Source: Halorubrum kocurii JCM 14978
Lineage (GTDB): Archaea > Halobacteriota > Halobacteria > Halobacteriales > Haloferacaceae
Direction of reading: 5' to 3'
DNA: 47,750 nucleotides
NCBI RefSeq assembly: GCF_000337355.1
Contig: NZ_AOJH01000035.1
Coordinates: 5,341 to 53,090, forward strand
The notes beneath the pieces were generated by a model. The model saw only the letters and a program-made list of their open reading frames with translations, was not told the DNA's origin and did not search any database. The translations under genes were made by a program, and so were the position numbers. Numbering within the stretch: the stretch's first letter is position 1; each line of letters starts with the position of its first letter. Positions 4,632-25,987 of this stretch are shown piece after piece.

Positions 4632-5828
4632 ATGTCGGGGCCCTTCAGCAATATTACGGAAACGATTTTTGCCGACAAGTCGGTTCTCACGGAAAGCTAC
4701 CAACCGGAGACGATCCTCGAACGCGATGAGGAGATCGAAGCGTACAGCCATGCTCTTCAGGACGTACTGTTCGGACGCGAGCCTGAGAACGTCTTTCTGT
4801 ACGGAAAGGCCGGTCTCGGGAAGACCGCTGTCACCGAGTACATGATGGACGAGTTGCGGGAAGAGGCAGCGACCCGTGAGCAGGCGGACGACCTGCACAT
4901 CCACCAGATAAACTGTAACGGTCGAACGCTCTTTATGGTCGTTCGGCAGTTAGTCAACCGGCTGTTACCCGAAGGGGCGAGCGACTTCCCAAAGCGGGGG
5001 CTCGGGACGGGCGACGCGTTCGACGAACTGTACACACAGCTCGACCGAATCGGTGGGACCCACCTGTTTGTCATCGACGAGATCGACCACCTCGACGACG
5101 CAAACACGCTCTTGTACGAACTGCCGCGGGCACGTGCGAACAACCACATCTCGGAGGCGCTCGTCGGTATCGTCGGCATTAGCAACGACTACACGTTTCG
5201 CCAGTCGCTGTCGCCGAAGGTCAAGGATACGCTGATGGAGACGGAGATTTCGTTTAGCCCGTACGACGCGGGCGAACTCCAAACGATCCTTCGTCACCGG
5301 GCGGAGACGGCGTTCGTTGACGGTGTTTGCGACCAGTCGGCTATCGCGAAGGCGGCGGCACTCGCCGCACAGGACATGGGGAACGCACGACAAGCGATCG
5401 ACTTCCTCCGTGTCGGATCAGAAGTCGCAGAGCGGGAGGGCGACCGACACGTGATCGATGATCACATCGAGCGCGCGCGGGCGCTCGTCCAGCGGGGCCG
5501 TCTCCAGAACAAGATCCGTGATCAGACCCAGCATGGCCAGTATATTCTCGAAGCGATCGCCACGTTGGCCAAGAGCGATGAACTTCCGGCGCGATCGAAG
5601 GAGATCCAGACGGTGTACGAGACGGTTGCCAACGCCCACGGGGCGTCACCGTTGACGACGCTAAAAAGCGTGCAGGACCACCTCTCCGATCTCCACATGC
5701 TCGGCTTTCTCATCCGGCACGAACAGAACCAGGGCCGAAGCGGCGGACAGTACTACGAGTACGAATTGGATCTCGATCCGGACATCATCGTCCAAACACG
5801 GCAGAAGATCGTTGAGCAGACCAGCTGA
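4632..5828 (+). CDS. Orc1/Cdc6 family replication initiator
   Basis: Binds origin repeats and helps load the MCM helicase. The 398 residues show the expected order: an AAA+ domain with Walker A GKAGLGKT (58-65), Walker B LFVIDEID (145-152), sensor-1 IVGISNDYTFRQSL, the archaeal SPKVKDTL segment, and sensor-2 GNARQAIDFLRVGSEVAE. A winged-helix domain follows from about residue 285 (ILEAIATLAKSDELPARSKEI, then GASPLTTLKSVQDHLSDL). Length is typical of haloarchaeal paralogues. Haloarchaea carry many such genes, some on integrated or extrachromosomal elements. Its codon use is slightly less GC-rich than that of hemC or sufS, so it may be a secondary or acquired origin. Flanking inverted repeats strongly suggest that it acts on this locus. 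Confidence 0.95.
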   Translation: MSGPFSNITETIFADKSVLTESYQPETILERDEEIEAYSHALQDVLFGREPENVFLYGKAGLGKTAVTEYMMDELREEAATREQADDLHIHQINCNGRTLFMVVRQLVNRLLPEGASDFPKRGLGTGDAFDELYTQLDRIGGTHLFVIDEIDHLDDANTLLYELPRARANNHISEALVGIVGISNDYTFRQSLSPKVKDTLMETEISFSPYDAGELQTILRHRAETAFVDGVCDQSAIAKAAALAAQDMGNARQAIDFLRVGSEVAEREGDRHVIDDHIERARALVQRGRLQNKIRDQTQHGQYILEAIATLAKSDELPARSKEIQTVYETVANAHGASPLTTLKSVQDHLSDLHMLGFLIRHEQNQGRSGGQYYEYELDLDPDIIVQTRQKIVEQTS

Positions 5829-12652: not shown

Positions 12653-13257
12653 GTCCGGGCGTGGGACACGGGGGGAGTTACCGGTTCGGATCCGATTCCC
12701 GAACGAATCCGAGTCTTTTCGGGTGAGCGACTGGGTCTGTTCGTGTGTCTCTGTCAATATATCATATCTCAGTATTAAAAAGGTATCTGCTAATTAGTCT
12801 TGCTACTATCTGTCAAATTCACTCCACTGACGCTACGAGATCTGAATCTGAGGCACAGTAATGAGCGGCACACAGTGAATTCGGCGGAATCTTGTGTCTA
12901 AATAAACTGGTAGAACTCACTAAATTTATGTGTTTATTTAAAACATGGGCTCTATATACCAATTATTCGGTATTCTTGCCATTTCTGATTGTACAGTGTA
13001 TTTCTGCATGCGAATACGGAAGTTTTGACCAAATATCTGATCCTTGTCTATCTCGAATTCCAGTAACGAAATAATATATTTATTCTTATATCATTTCTAA
13101 ATACTACATTTTCATAAATAATGTCTGCGACGACGCGGGCTGATATCCGTCCGCCGACCCCCCGCGAACCGACGCCGGCGGATCGGCTCGTCACCTCGGT
13201 GGCCCGGTGAACGAAGGATACATTTAACACCACGAACATCGTTTTCGGTCCATATCG
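12653..13257. other. AT-rich intergenic island
   Basis: The stretch from about 12770 to 13125 is far richer in A and T than either flank (runs such as ATAATATATTTATTC and TTTATTTAAAACATG). No reading frame in it looks like a protein: the longest, 60 codons at 12892, has no start context and unrelated codon use. The final 130 bases are GC-rich again and contain the promoter of the SMC-like gene. It may be a relic of foreign DNA or a structural or segregation site. Confidence 0.7.
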
Positions 13258-15192
13258 ATGGCTCAGATCTCGAAACCCTCCGTTCACGTCGACGTCCGAA
13301 ACGTCGGCGGGATCGACGAGGCGTCCGTCACGCTTTCCGACGGCGTCTCGATCTTGACCGGGCGAAACGCGACGAACCGGACGTCCTTCCTGCAGGCGCT
13401 GATGGCCGGACTGGGGAGCCGGCAGACCTCGTTGAAAGGCGACGCCGAGGAGGGCGGGGTGACGCTCGAACTCGGCGACGAAACGTACACGCGGACGCTG
13501 ACACGTCGGGGCGATTCCGTCGCGTTCGGCGGCGATCCTTACCTCGACGACCCGGAACTCGCCGACCTGTTCGCGTTCCTGTTAGAGGACAACGAGGCGC
13601 GCCGCGCGGTCGCGCGCGGCGACGACCTCCGCGAGATCATCATGCGTCCGATCGACACCGACGCGATCGACGCGGAGATCCGCGAGTGCAAGCGCGAGCG
13701 TGACGAGCTGGAGAGCGAAATCGAACAGCTCGACAGCCTCGAACGCGACCTGCCCGACCTCGAGGCCGACCGCCGCGAGAAGGCCGAGGAGCTGGAGGCG
13801 GCACAAGAGAAGCTCGAGTCGGTCCGCGAGGAGCTCGACGAGCTCGACGCCGGCGTCGAGGAGAGCCGAACGCGCAAAGAGGAGATGGAGGAGGCGTTCC
13901 AGCGGGTCCGTGACGCCCGGTCCGAGCTCGACGACCTCGAGTTCGACCTCGAAACGGAACGCTCGACGCTCACGGAGCTCAAATCGGAGCGCGAGGAGCT
14001 GCAGGAGACGGTCGAAGCGGCGGAGGACCCCGACGAGAACCCGGATCGCCTCGCCGGCCGCATCGACGAGCTCCGCCGCCGGAAGCGCTCGCTCGACGAC
14101 GACATCAACGAGCTCGGCAGCGTCATCGGCTTCAACGAGGACCTGGTGGACGGCTCGGGCATCGATGTCGACATCGACGAGGAGGCGGCCGGCGACGACC
14201 CGACGGCCGCGCTGACCACGGGCGACCGGACGGTGTGTTGGACCTGCGGGTCCGAGGTCGAGACCGACCAGATCGAGTCGACCCTCGACCGCCTCCGCCA
14301 GCTCCGCTCCGACAAGCTCGACGAGCGCAACGAGATCCGCGCGGAGATACAGGAGCTCACAGACCGGCAGTCGTCGATCCGCGAGGCCCAGCGCGAGATC
14401 GAGCGCGCCGAGGAGCGGCTCGACGCGGTCGCCGAGGAGATCGGGTCGACCGAGTCGCGGATCGCCGACCTCGAAGAGCGGATCGAGTCGAAACGAGCGG
14501 AGATCGAGGAGCTGGAGGAAGAAGCCGAGTCAGTCGACGTCGACGGCTACGACGAGGCGCTGGAGCTCCACCGCGAGGCGAACGGGATCGAGCTCCGGAT
14601 CGAGCGGCTCGAAGACGAGATCGACGAGATCGACGCGGAGATCGACGAGCGGGAGGCCGCGATTGATCGCCGCGAGGACCTGAAGGCCGAGCGCGAGGAG
14701 CTCGCCGACCGGCTGACGGAGCTGCGGACGCGCGTCGACCGCATCGAGGACGACGCCGTCGAGGAGTTCAACGAGCACATGGAGACCGTCCTCGACATCC
14801 TGGAGTACGAGAACCTCGACCGGATCTGGATCGAGCGCCGAGAGACCGAGGTACGCGAGGGGCGCCGCAAGGTCACGCGCACCCGGTTCGACCTCCATAT
14901 CGTCCGCTCGTCGCCCGACGGGACGGCCTACGAGGACACGGTCGACCACCTCTCGGAGAGCGAGCGCGAGGTGACGGGGCTCGTGTTCGCGCTCGCGGGG
15001 TACCTCGTCCACAACGTCCACGAGACGGTCCCGTTCGTCCTGCTCGACTCGCTCGAAGCGATCGACTCGGACCGGATCGCGCGTGTCGTCGACTACTTCC
15101 GGACGCACGCCGACTACTTCGTCGCCGCGCTCCTGCCGGAGGACGCCGCCGCCCTCTCTGACGAGTACGCCTACGTCGAACAGATCGACTGA
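13258..15192 (+). CDS. Archaea-specific SMC/Rad50-related protein with degenerate P-loop
   Basis: 644 residues arranged like Rad50: N-terminal ATPase half (1-130), coiled coil, a central CxxC (Cys327 and Cys330 in TVCWTCGSE), returning coiled coil, C-terminal ATPase half. The Walker A site reads GRNATNRTS (35-43), where SMC proteins have GxNGxGKS, so the key Lys is replaced by Arg. The C-terminal signature is SESEREVTG and Walker B is FVLLDSLEAID. One CxxC can pair two hinges through zinc, as in Rad50 hooks. The next gene on the same strand encodes an RdfA-like protein, and such pairs are a known haloarchaeal arrangement linked to cell shape. ATP hydrolysis is doubtful. Confidence 0.85.
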   Translation: MAQISKPSVHVDVRNVGGIDEASVTLSDGVSILTGRNATNRTSFLQALMAGLGSRQTSLKGDAEEGGVTLELGDETYTRTLTRRGDSVAFGGDPYLDDPELADLFAFLLEDNEARRAVARGDDLREIIMRPIDTDAIDAEIRECKRERDELESEIEQLDSLERDLPDLEADRREKAEELEAAQEKLESVREELDELDAGVEESRTRKEEMEEAFQRVRDARSELDDLEFDLETERSTLTELKSEREELQETVEAAEDPDENPDRLAGRIDELRRRKRSLDDDINELGSVIGFNEDLVDGSGIDVDIDEEAAGDDPTAALTTGDRTVCWTCGSEVETDQIESTLDRLRQLRSDKLDERNEIRAEIQELTDRQSSIREAQREIERAEERLDAVAEEIGSTESRIADLEERIESKRAEIEELEEEAESVDVDGYDEALELHREANGIELRIERLEDEIDEIDAEIDEREAAIDRREDLKAEREELADRLTELRTRVDRIEDDAVEEFNEHMETVLDILEYENLDRIWIERRETEVREGRRKVTRTRFDLHIVRSSPDGTAYEDTVDHLSESEREVTGLVFALAGYLVHNVHETVPFVLLDSLEAIDSDRIARVVDYFRTHADYFVAALLPEDAAALSDEYAYVEQID

Positions 15193-15261
15193 TCGACGCC
15201 CGGCTGCGGGTCCGGATCCGCGACGACCCGCCCGTTTTCAAGGAGCCGTTGGGAAGAAAAA

Positions 15262-15281
15262 TTACAAAGTTACGTTTGTAA
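15262..15281. promoter_or_regulatory. Palindrome TTACAAA-N6-TTTGTAA
   Basis: Perfect 7-bp arms around GTTACG, 70 bases past the SMC-like stop. The size and symmetry suit a dimeric regulator; it could also act in transcript ending. No regulator is assigned. Confidence 0.45.
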
Positions 15282-15540
15282 CAGTGTCCGGTCGCAACGA
15301 CGGAACGGCCCGGCGGTCGGCAAGCGCGCGGTAAGTCGGTCGCGTCACGGCCGGTGTCGGTCCGATGCGCCGTCGCCGATGTTATCTGTATATTGCACGT
15401 TCGACGAATTATGTGTATTCTGAAATAACTTCTCGTCCGGAGCGCAGTTCGGTGCGCTCGGTCCTCGATCGGGACGAGCGGACGGGCCCGGCGGTCGCCG
15501 TCGCCGGGCGGTCGGAGGGTCGGGCCGCCGAGTCGCCGTC

Positions 15541-15655
15541 GCCGAGTGGTCGGAGGGTCGGACCGCCGAGTGGTCGGAGGGTCGGGTTGCCGAGTCGCCG
15601 GGCTGCCGAGTCGCCGTCGCCGAGTCGCCGGGCTGCCGAGTCGCCGGGGGTCGCA
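15541..15655 (+). repeat. Degenerate GC-rich tandem repeats
   Basis: GCCGAGTGGTCGGAGGGTCG occurs at 15541 and again at 15565 (period 24). It is followed by several GCCGAGTCGCCGGGCT units with shorter GCCGAGTCGCCGTC variants. Simple-sequence type; no coding sense in any frame. Confidence 0.75.
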
Positions 15656-15708
15656 TCGCCGGGTCGGAACACCGATGTTTTTGTCACGCTCGGGGGTGAA
15701 GTCACAGT

Positions 15709-16335
15709 ATGAGCAACGAAGCGAGCGGGACGAACACGAAGGTCGCCCGGGTGATCCGGGAGTACGATCTCGAGGGCATGGGCGCGAGCTTGGAGGCCGC
15801 GTGGACCGGCGAGGCGGGCGAGCGGACGAGCCTGCGGGACCTCGCTGACGAGTTCAACGAGGCGGTGCTGGAGGCGGCCCTCCGCGAGGCGAGCGTCTCG
15901 TCGCTCAGCGTCGACGTGTCGAGCACGTACGAGGCGCTCAGCGGCGACTCCGGCTCGTCGTCGACGCGGGCGCGCCGCCGACTGGAACGCGAGGGCGTCG
16001 ACGTCGACGAGCTGACCGGGAACTTCGTCACCCACCAGGCGGTCCACACGTACCTCACGAAGGAGCGCGAGGCGAGCCTCCCGGCGGCCGCCGACGGCAT
16101 GGCCGACCGGAAGGTCGAGACCATCGAGAAGCTCCAAGGGCGGGTCTCCGCGGTCGCCGAGTCGGCCATCTCCTCGCTCGCGAACGCGGACGAACTGGAC
16201 CGGGGCGACTACGACGTGCTCGTCGACGTGCGCGCCGTCTGCCCCAACTGCGGGGCCGACGCGCCGGTCGGCGAACTGATCCGGCGCGGCGGCTGCGAGT
16301 GCACGGCGGGGTCCGAGCCCGGCGACGACGAGTGA
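15709..16335 (+). CDS. rdfA: Rod-determining factor RdfA-like protein
   Basis: 208 residues. N-terminal KVARVIREYDLEGMG and the helix-rich TSLRDLADEFNEAVLEAAL fit RdfA-type proteins, which in Haloferax promote rod shape. The middle contains a conserved-looking RRRLEREGVDVDELTGNFVTHQAVHTYLT. The end is a small zinc-binding unit, CPNCGADAPVGELIRRGGCEC. It lies 516 bases after the SMC-related gene on the same strand. The family name comes from memory of the motifs and neighbourhood, not a search. Confidence 0.8.
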   Translation: MSNEASGTNTKVARVIREYDLEGMGASLEAAWTGEAGERTSLRDLADEFNEAVLEAALREASVSSLSVDVSSTYEALSGDSGSSSTRARRRLEREGVDVDELTGNFVTHQAVHTYLTKEREASLPAAADGMADRKVETIEKLQGRVSAVAESAISSLANADELDRGDYDVLVDVRAVCPNCGADAPVGELIRRGGCECTAGSEPGDDE

Positions 16336-23625: not shown

Positions 23626-24032
23626 CCACCTCCGGTGGACCGCGCGAACTCCTCGCCGATCACGTCGCTAATGGCGTCGTTCGTCCGCTGGAGGAGTGCT
23701 ATCAGCTCGGCCTGTGCGGCCTGCTGACGCTGGATCGTCTCGTCGTTCGACAGCTCGGTCTGGAGCTGCTTCAGCTCGGCCATCACCGAGTCGTCGAAGC
23801 CGCCGCGCTGCAGCTCCTGTTGCTTCCGCTGGTACTCGCGAAGCAGCGCCATCGCGTCGTCGTCGTCCTGTAACGCCTCGTCGGCCGCAACGAACTGTTG
23901 GTACGTCTCCGACTCGCCGAGAGCGTCGAGGAACTCGCGGAGCGCCGCCTCGACGTTCGTCTCCACGGCGTCCTCGTCGGGTCCACTCGCGACGCCCTCA
24001 GTCGCGTCGTCTGCATCCTGCGCGTCGCTCAC
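23616..24032 (-). CDS. YlbF/YmcA-like helical protein with Gly-Gly-Gly-Cys-Cys tail
   Basis: 138 residues. After an acidic leader, a long helical hairpin (ETNVEAALREFLDALGESET, LLREYQRKQQELQRGGFD, MAELKQLQTELSNDETIQRQ) resembles the YlbF/YmcA (Com_YlbF) fold. It ends STGGGCC. Bacterial YlbF-type proteins form complexes that modulate RNase Y; in this cluster the Cys-Cys tail suggests a metalloid link instead. It overlaps arsA by four bases (ATGA) and the next small gene by ten. The coupling implies that the product is made together with ArsA. Confidence 0.75.
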   Translation of the reverse strand: MSDAQDADDATEGVASGPDEDAVETNVEAALREFLDALGESETYQQFVAADEALQDDDDAMALLREYQRKQQELQRGGFDDSVMAELKQLQTELSNDETIQRQQAAQAELIALLQRTNDAISDVIGEEFARSTGGGCC

Positions 24033-25987
24033 GAGGGCGTCACCTCCGGTGCGTCTGCCTCGGTGATGTCCGCGAGCCCGGTGATCTCCTCGCCGAAGGC
24101 GCTGAGTTCGTCGAGCCCGATCGGTTCGTCCTGCCGGAGCGGCGCCGACATCAGCGGCGCGTCGAAGCGGTCGCGAATCTCCTCGAGATACCGCGCCTGC
24201 TGAGCGCGCCGATTCGCGAAGAAGGCGTTGTCGCCGTACTCCTCGGGGAGGAGGTAGTTGGCGACGACCAACGAGGTCTCGATGCCGACCTGATCTTCGA
24301 GGTCGGCGGCGGCCCGGTAGGCTTCCATCATAGGCGTGTACTCGGGGTACATCACGAACGCGAACGTGCTCCGTTCGGGGTCTTTCATCGTCTCGATGAC
24401 CTCGTCGTACTGGTCGCCCTTCGCGGGGGCGGCGCCCTTCGTCAGCGAGCCGAGGTCCATGAACCCCTTCCAGTCGGAGGGGAGTTCGAGCAAGCGGAGC
24501 GTGTGGCCCGTGGGGGCGGTGTCGAAGACGACCACGTCGTAGCCGTCCTCGTCGAAGTAGCTCACGAACTTCTCGAGGGCGGCCATCTCCTCGGCACAGG
24601 GGGACTCCAACTCCTCTTCGACGTTCGCGATTGCGGCGTCGACGTCGATCTGGGTGTCCTCTTTGTCCGCGTACATCTCGGTGACGTGGTCGAGGACCTG
24701 CTCCCGGTACTCGGCGAGCGCCTTTTCTTGGTCGATCCGCGCCGCGTCGAGGTTCTCCCGGCCGACCGAGGTGGGCTCGTGGCCCACTGGTTCGCCGAAG
24801 ATGTCCTCGAGATGCGCGGCCGGGTCGGTCGTGACGACGAGCGTCTCGTGGCCCGCCTCAGCGAGCTTCGTCGCCGCCGTCGAGGCGATCGTGCTCTTAC
24901 CGACGCCGCCCTTGCCGGTGAAAAAGAGGTACTGCGTCTCCTCGCCCGGCGTGAGCTGGTCGACGACCGCGTTGGGGTCCGCCATCGAATCGAAGTCGAC
25001 CGCGCCGTCGGCGTCGACGCGGCCCGTCTCCTCAGCGTCGGTCGCCGCGCCGACGTCGACGGTCGCTTCCCTGCCATCGTAGAGGACGCCACCCACGTCC
25101 GCGAGCAGGTCGAGGCCGGCGATCTCGCCGGGCTGAAGCGGGTACGTCGCCGTCGCGTCGGCGTCGAACTCCTCTCGCGCGCGCTCGACGACGGCCTGCT
25201 CGTCCGCGCGTTTCCCCTCGAAGAACGGGTCGTCACACACCGACTCAGGGAGGTAGCCGTTGAGGACCAGCAGCTGCGACTCGATCCCGAGATCAGCGAG
25301 GTCGCTCGCGCTGCGTTCGACCTCGTCGATCGAGGAGTCTTCGGGCTTGCCGACGAAGGCGAACGAGGTGCGCTCGTCGTCCTGAAGCGTGTCGATCGCG
25401 CGCTCGTAATCCTGTTTTTTGTCCTCCATCGAGGCCGCCGGCCCGATACAGGTCGAGCCGCCCTTCTCGAGTTCGGCGTTCCAGTCGGAGGGGAGCTCCA
25501 TGAGCCGGATGGTGTGACCCGTCGGCGCCGTGTCGAAGACCACGACGTCGTACTCGGGGCTGTCCATGAAGTCGACGAAGTTGTCGAAGGCGGCGATCTC
25601 CTCGACGCAGGGGCTGTTGAGCTGCTCTTCGACCGTCTGTATCTCCTCCTCGCCGAGCAGTTCGCGCATCGGCTCGATCGTCTCCTGGCGGTACTCCTCC
25701 GCGGCGGTGTCCGGGTCGATCTCGATCGCCGAGAGGTTCCCGACCCCGTCGATCGCGGTGACCTCGTGGCCGATGTCCTGCCCGAAGATGTCCGAGAGGT
25801 TCGGCGCGGGGTCGGTGGTCACCAGCAGCGTCTCGTAGTCGTTGTCGGCGAGCCACGTCGCGGTCGCACAGCTCACCGTGCTCTTGCCGACGCCGCCTTT
25901 CCCGCTGAAGAAGACGAACTCGGTCTCGTCGCTACTCGGTTCGACGACGTCACGCGCGCTCGTCGCCGTCGACTGTGATTGTGCCAT
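24029..25987 (-). CDS. arsA: Arsenite-stimulated ATPase ArsA (duplicated)
   Basis: 652 residues with two homologous ATPase halves. Each has a deviant Walker A GKGGVGKST (29-37 and 358-366) and a DTAPTGHT signal loop (152-159, and again near 490). The three arsenite-binding cysteines of bacterial ArsA have plausible counterparts at Cys127 (NSPC), Cys180 (GSTC) and Cys464 (ESPC). ArsA couples ATP to arsenite export through ArsB. It follows arsD by three bases. The two halves are joined by an acidic linker (about 310-345). No arsB or acr3 gene is seen within the window. Confidence 0.96.
   Translation of the reverse strand: MAQSQSTATSARDVVEPSSDETEFVFFSGKGGVGKSTVSCATATWLADNDYETLLVTTDPAPNLSDIFGQDIGHEVTAIDGVGNLSAIEIDPDTAAEEYRQETIEPMRELLGEEEIQTVEEQLNSPCVEEIAAFDNFVDFMDSPEYDVVVFDTAPTGHTIRLMELPSDWNAELEKGGSTCIGPAASMEDKKQDYERAIDTLQDDERTSFAFVGKPEDSSIDEVERSASDLADLGIESQLLVLNGYLPESVCDDPFFEGKRADEQAVVERAREEFDADATATYPLQPGEIAGLDLLADVGGVLYDGREATVDVGAATDAEETGRVDADGAVDFDSMADPNAVVDQLTPGEETQYLFFTGKGGVGKSTIASTAATKLAEAGHETLVVTTDPAAHLEDIFGEPVGHEPTSVGRENLDAARIDQEKALAEYREQVLDHVTEMYADKEDTQIDVDAAIANVEEELESPCAEEMAALEKFVSYFDEDGYDVVVFDTAPTGHTLRLLELPSDWKGFMDLGSLTKGAAPAKGDQYDEVIETMKDPERSTFAFVMYPEYTPMMEAYRAAADLEDQVGIETSLVVANYLLPEEYGDNAFFANRRAQQARYLEEIRDRFDAPLMSAPLRQDEPIGLDELSAFGEEITGLADITEADAPEVTPS

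Follow-up and report, generated by a model that had tools for sequence, protein, structure and literature searches.

The SMC-like protein Sph of Halorubrum kocurii JCM 14978 belongs to a class of haloarchaeal proteins in which two residues of the ATP site are replaced together, i.e., the Walker A Lys by Arg and the catalytic Walker B Glu by Ser. New here is that these paired changes are class-wide in haloarchaea and apparently under selection, and that relatives in methanogens point to an older partnership with RdfA, the rod-determining factor encoded next to Sph. The Sph/RdfA locus itself is an ordinary member of an already published pair.

The Sph/RdfA locus

Within the analyzed window, a stretch of 47,750 nucleotides, the range 13258-16335 spans both genes (Table 1). 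Sph matched the NCBIfam model NF045487 (ASRP) with 683.3 bits at a cut-off of 300, with residues 15-628 aligned to profile positions 1-593 of 593. RdfA matched PF21811 over its full length with 237.3 bits at a gathering score of 27. Both proteins are hence members of their families by the family models, and each is the sole copy in the genome above the respective cut-off. This confirms the original prediction, made from the sequence, of an SMC-like protein beside an RdfA-like one; the coiled coils and the LSESE signature of Sph agree with it as well.

Table 1. Features of the Sph/RdfA locus, in window positions
Feature	Position	Strand	Basis
ASRP/Sph, SMC-like protein, 644 aa	13258..15192	+	NF045487 match
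Non-canonical Walker A GRNATNRTS, residues 35-43: Asn40 for Gly, Arg41 for Lys	13360..13386	+	Alignment with relatives
CWTC zinc-hook motif, C327-C330, at coiled-coil turn	14236..14247	+	Sequence, alignment
Signature motif LSESE, residues 565-569	14950..14964	+	Alignment
Non-canonical Walker B and D-loop FVLLDSLEAID, residues 593-603: Ser598 for catalytic Glu; new invariant Glu600	15034..15066	+	Alignment
Spacer between Sph and RdfA, 516 bp	15193..15708	+	Sequence
RdfA, rod-determining factor A family, 208 aa	15709..16335	+	PF21811 match
RdfA C-terminal zinc-ribbon-like CPNC...CEC, Cys178, 181, 196, 198	16240..16302	+	Sequence

GC-rich tandem repeats were found at 15494-15648, inside the spacer between the two genes, and an AT-rich island (12700-13299, GC 0.40-0.47, neighbors 0.64-0.80) lies just 5' of Sph. 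The window also encodes a replication initiator of the Cdc6/Orc1 type (4632-5825, +) and a tandem ArsA-type anion-transporting ATPase (24032-25987, -).

In Haloferax volcanii, rod formation requires both RdfA (HVO_2174) and the adjacent Sph3, and rods are abolished by deletion of rdfA; in haloarchaea, 42 of 54 RdfA and 42 of 50 SMC-like Sph were reported to be adjacent (PMC10869688). The present locus has the same two families side by side. Unlike the Hfx. volcanii pair, Sph here precedes RdfA on the same strand, 516 bp apart, with one of each per genome. The link to rod shape that had been suggested for this DNA thus finds its support in published homologues. Since Sph paralogues have other or opposite roles (PMC11276520), a rod-shape role of the present copy can only be presumed. 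Sph1 and Sph2 of Halobacterium salinarum, both plasmid copies, belong to the ASRP family too, with RdfA just upstream of each.

The ATP site of Sph and its relatives

In the definition of the ASRP family, the N-terminal region carries Walker A, the C-terminal region carries Walker B and the signature, and a zinc-hooked coiled coil lies in between; the consulted parts of that paper state both Walker motifs to be present and carry no comment on their residues (PMC9389158). Sph has the same layout. As originally predicted, long coiled coils flank a central C327-W-T-C330, and the zinc-hook CxxC was found in 84/84 aligned haloarchaeal ASRPs. The alignment placed Arg41 of GRNATNRTS on the Walker A Lys, which the prediction had also proposed, and Asn40 on the Gly just before. 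A second change had been missed there: in Walker B, D597 is followed by S598, so that Ser occupies the position of the catalytic Glu. Sph hence has Arg41 and Ser598 in place of the Lys and catalytic Glu of an active SMC/Rad50-type ATPase, and the earlier suggestion that it is perhaps ATPase-inactive is strengthened by the loss of the Glu.

The genome also encodes SMC and Rad50 heads, whose P-loops are normal (GPNGSGKSN and GLNGSGKSS, respectively). Together with the open reading frame and the invariance of the altered residues in 73 homologues, this rules out a sequencing error or a pseudogene. Apart from the coiled coil, the Sph sequence gave no hint of a cytoskeletal filament protein of the Arcadin-4/CCRP type, and the filament or scaffold of the earlier suggestion gained no direct support. 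Single-sequence structure models reached pLDDT values of 59 for Sph and 51 for RdfA; the Sph model was below 50 at residues 1-131 and 511-644, i.e., in the heads, and neither model was used. Sph is treated as an SMC-superfamily ATPase in those parts of the literature that we consulted. In the open literature, we found no title or abstract on a replaced Sph Lys and Glu; the first Sph publications, from 1998 and 2002, may mention the motif.

We gathered 125 ORFs and aligned 117, i.e., 108 ASRPs (84 haloarchaeal, 24 others) and nine outgroup proteins. Omitted were four Rad50-like proteins (L106, L107, L108, L110), the unrelated L109, the duplicate L111 and the fragments L254 and L255. One Methanosarcinales ASRP (L264) was added after the alignment, which gave 25 non-haloarchaeal ASRPs. 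The haloarchaeal set comprises all 55 full matches in the haloarchaeal genomes of one even sample, with a partial match over 178 profile positions (G034:C24) omitted, and 29 best-scoring matches of a second sample, all of them Arg-Ser and biased to that type.

Of the 84 haloarchaeal ASRPs, 73 carry Arg at residue 41 and 11 carry Lys. At residue 598 we found Ser in 73, Gly in five, Ala in three, Arg in three and Glu in none. Arg41 was always paired with Ser598 (73/73), and Lys41 occurred with Ala598 (three proteins) or with Gly598 or Arg598 (eight proteins). The even sample of 55 contained 44 Arg-Ser, three Lys-Ala and eight Lys-Gly/Arg proteins. The Arg in the P-loop is class-wide in haloarchaea and not peculiar to this Sph. 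For the eight Sph1-like ASRPs (L089-L096), a regular-expression reading had indicated a destroyed Walker A; the alignment overturned this, as GKS is intact, with the Walker B Glu replaced by Gly or Arg and the D-loop Asp gone in 7/8. H. salinarum Sph2 has GRNATGRTS and DSLEAID, i.e., Gly is kept and Lys lost, and Sph1 has ASNFQGKSS and DGIGQLA, i.e., Lys is kept and Glu lost. Given DSLEAID and DGIGQLA, both founding members from H. salinarum are hence without the Walker B Glu.

Outside haloarchaea, the Walker A Lys was present in 25/25 and the Walker B Glu in 22/25 ASRPs. Coalescin ClsN of Sulfolobales is an ASRP with a CxxC hook like Sph, but has both Lys and Glu intact (15/15, including sequences of Candidatus Aramenus and Metallosphaera javensis). 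Both residues were also kept in the Methanosarcinales ASRPs (4/4). Among the six remaining non-haloarchaeal ASRPs the Walker B Glu was found in three; in the ASRP-like proteins L100, L102 and L103 it is replaced, by Asp in one and by Asn in two. Loss of the Walker B Glu is thus not confined to haloarchaea.

At a sampled mean pairwise identity of about 50%, R41 and S598 were invariant in 73/73 R-type ASRPs. Invariant head columns amounted to 42/269 and included G35, N37, A38, T39, R41, S43, S566-E569, D597, S598, E600 and D603. Active-site positions were invariant in 14/20 cases versus 28/249 elsewhere in the head (p ~1e-8), with the 20 positions chosen by hand after the list of invariant columns had been seen. 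Moreover, across the 73 R-type genes Arg41 is encoded by all six Arg codons and Ser598 by all six Ser codons, from both codon blocks. Such strict conservation of the altered site speaks against a lesion or dead relic and argues that the site is held by selection rather than decaying.

In a FastTree analysis of head sequences, the haloarchaeal ASRPs formed one clade (support 0.96) with the Methanosarcinales clade as sister, in a tree that omits L235 and has weak deeper nodes and a non-monophyletic outgroup. Sph grouped with haloarchaeal Sph, and the ATP-site changes fall inside the haloarchaeal clade. Since the sister Methanosarcinales have Lys and Glu, the ancestral site was probably intact. 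With ClsN keeping both residues as well, the change in the site seems to have arisen within the haloarchaea and to have been maintained by selection since. The haloarchaeal Sph head is probably poor in hydrolysis but still used.

The partnership with RdfA

RdfA was present within the examined flank of 64/73 R-type genes and 10/11 other haloarchaeal ASRP genes; the flanks without RdfA (9/73 R-type genes) mostly covered about 1.4 kb, and 0.3 kb for L073. In R-type pairs, RdfA lay upstream on the same strand in 39, downstream on the same strand in 13, downstream on the opposite strand in nine and upstream on the opposite strand in three cases. Over all 77 pairs, R-type and other, the median gap between Sph and RdfA was 54 bp. 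Adjacency was kept through rearrangement, which argues for Sph and RdfA forming a working unit rather than a frozen operon. RdfA and Sph protein distances agreed with r 0.90 (77 pairs, 0/2000 permutations), an r that shared ancestry and linkage alone would raise. The C-terminal zinc-ribbon-like motif is common to most RdfA homologues.

As at the present locus, an RdfA-like gene follows the ASRP in Methanosarcinales, directly downstream in 4/4 cases (L097, L098, L099, L264). L098 is from Methanomethylovorans hollandica pMETHO01, where the RdfA-like gene METHO_RS12125 is annotated as a hypothetical protein; L097, L099 and L264 were assigned to Methanosarcinales by family label and tree only. L264 was reached via the RdfA search, upon which the adjoining ASRP with intact Lys and Glu was found. 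The Pfam RdfA model gave 6e-9, 6e-6 and 1e-4 on three of the Methanosarcinales proteins, one of them above the cut-off, and genome-wide the standard model recovered two of the four (1.3e-8 and 1.6e-5). A C-terminal CxxC was present in 3/4, and an N-terminal CxxC with a Cys after a conserved HL in 4/4 of these proteins. Unlike the Sph locus, the Methanosarcinales pair thus combines an ASRP with intact Lys and Glu and an RdfA-like protein with N-terminal CxxC and HxxxC. An RdfA homologue beside intact ASRPs suggests a partnership older than the loss of Lys and Glu from the ATP site; judged from these homologues, the ASRP-RdfA pairing predates the haloarchaea.

Arg41 and the absence of the N-terminal Cys and HxxxC from the RdfA partner did not go together: the R-type partners L016, L039, L062, L064, L075 and L082 keep both, and the partner of the K-type L065 is without them. 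On the ClsN side, unlike at the present locus, a search of 23 Thermoproteota genomes carrying ASRP or related matches, some of these matches being probably Arcadin-4, gave no RdfA. We attribute an RdfA match in G386 to chance similarity in a SurA-like protein. RdfA-like proteins with CxxC and HxxxC are encoded in two genomes from another family of the phylum (L258:1529-2101, L259:4276-4887), with no ASRP neighbor within the fetched stretches.

A proposed rebuilt head and its alternatives

We favor as rather probable that Sph is a hook-joined dimer with a rebuilt, non-hydrolyzing head that serves as an RdfA-bound clamp or scaffold. Two chains would join through the CWTC hook as in Rad50, which shares the zinc hook and bipartite head with Sph and whose archaeal chains rank among the closest solved structures in sequence-profile comparison; Rad50 has a canonical ATPase site, Mre11 as partner and a longer coiled coil than Sph. 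The Sph heads would form an SMC-type sandwich with a rebuilt nucleotide site (Gly40 to Asn, Lys41 to Arg, Glu598 to Ser). This site may still bind nucleotide, or an Arg-acidic contact may hold the head-head interface instead. ATP would no longer be hydrolyzed at a useful rate, so that the complex would presumably work as a stable clamp or scaffold rather than as a cycling motor, and RdfA would be bound to Sph as a non-SMC subunit in a physical complex. In other P-loop proteins, a Lys-to-Arg change with loss of the catalytic Glu often leaves ATP bound and unhydrolyzed.

Some P-loop enzymes, however, stay active despite changed residues, and the invariant Glu600 of the R-type proteins could substitute for the lost Glu. 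Sph would then be an altered but active ATPase that still cycles, with Arg41 contacting the phosphates and Glu600 (DSLE for DELT) as catalytic acid. The entire site is strongly constrained, and every haloarchaeal ASRP of R or N-K type has Glu600 (76/76), whereas the eight Sph1-like proteins, Methanosarcinales and ClsN lack it. We nevertheless consider continued cycling improbable, as Gly40 is lost too and the catalytic acid of SMC and ABC heads is the residue directly after the Walker B Asp; we know of no precedent for its move by two residues into the D-loop. At the other extreme stands a pure pseudo-ATPase with a nucleotide-free head, in which Arg41 forms a fixed salt bridge to Asp597 or Glu600 and only coiled coil, hook and interface matter. 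Such a head would agree with the combined loss of Lys, Gly40 and Glu, and a motor is not required for the published shape role. It is quite improbable in our view, because those residues of signature, D-loop and P-loop that contact nucleotide in relatives are invariant, although an interface role could explain this too.

A further alternative concerns the target of Sph and is compatible with either head state. Here, Sph would be mainly directed at DNA like ClsN, i.e., at gene conversion or chromosome contacts, with an indirect effect on shape via gene regulation and RdfA as a DNA-binding zinc protein. Each of the four Hfx. volcanii sph deletions lowers gene conversion (PMC11276520), ClsN organizes chromosomes (PMC9764264), and the C-terminal end of RdfA is zinc-ribbon-like. 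Deletion of sph3 or rdfA, however, causes a clean loss of rods, and deletion of sph2 does the opposite and yields rods (PMC10869688, PMC11276520), which makes a mainly DNA-directed role doubtful. Moreover, Pfam and PDB sequence profiles detected no DNA-binding domain in RdfA.

For the clamp or scaffold reading, we tentatively propose that an ancestral ATP-cycling ASRP-RdfA complex, which would persist with its site intact in Methanosarcinales, gave rise to the non-cycling SMC clamps of haloarchaea when coupled, selected changes remodeled its ATP site (Gly-Lys to Asn-Arg, Glu to Ser, a new Glu at +2). Sph might thereby have abandoned ATP cycling, with heads, hook and partner retained, as it moved toward a role in cell shape, a course for which we know of no other example in an SMC-superfamily lineage. 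If hydrolysis was indeed lost branch-wide and the site is selected, experimental and modeling work that presumes a motor would be misdirected, and the intact methanogen pair would offer a natural before-and-after comparison. RdfA, so far a haloarchaeal family without a described molecular role, would date back further and would probably be a subunit of an SMC-like complex.

A virus origin of Sph/RdfA was rejected. The phages collection gave no match, and the viral_contigs collection gave a single stretch of 19% identity (L257) and nothing for RdfA or alignment A2. The nearest named relative of Sph (87% identity) is encoded on a megaplasmid of Halorubrum ezzemoulense, with RdfA in the same order. 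ASRP matches were found on 136 plasmid records, often of large plasmids. Within the genus Halorubrum, the distribution is patchy, with ASRP in 21 of 35 sampled genomes. One Halorubrum genome without an ASRP match carries a pair of RdfA-like genes separated by about 1 kb (G072:C26:9957-11997).
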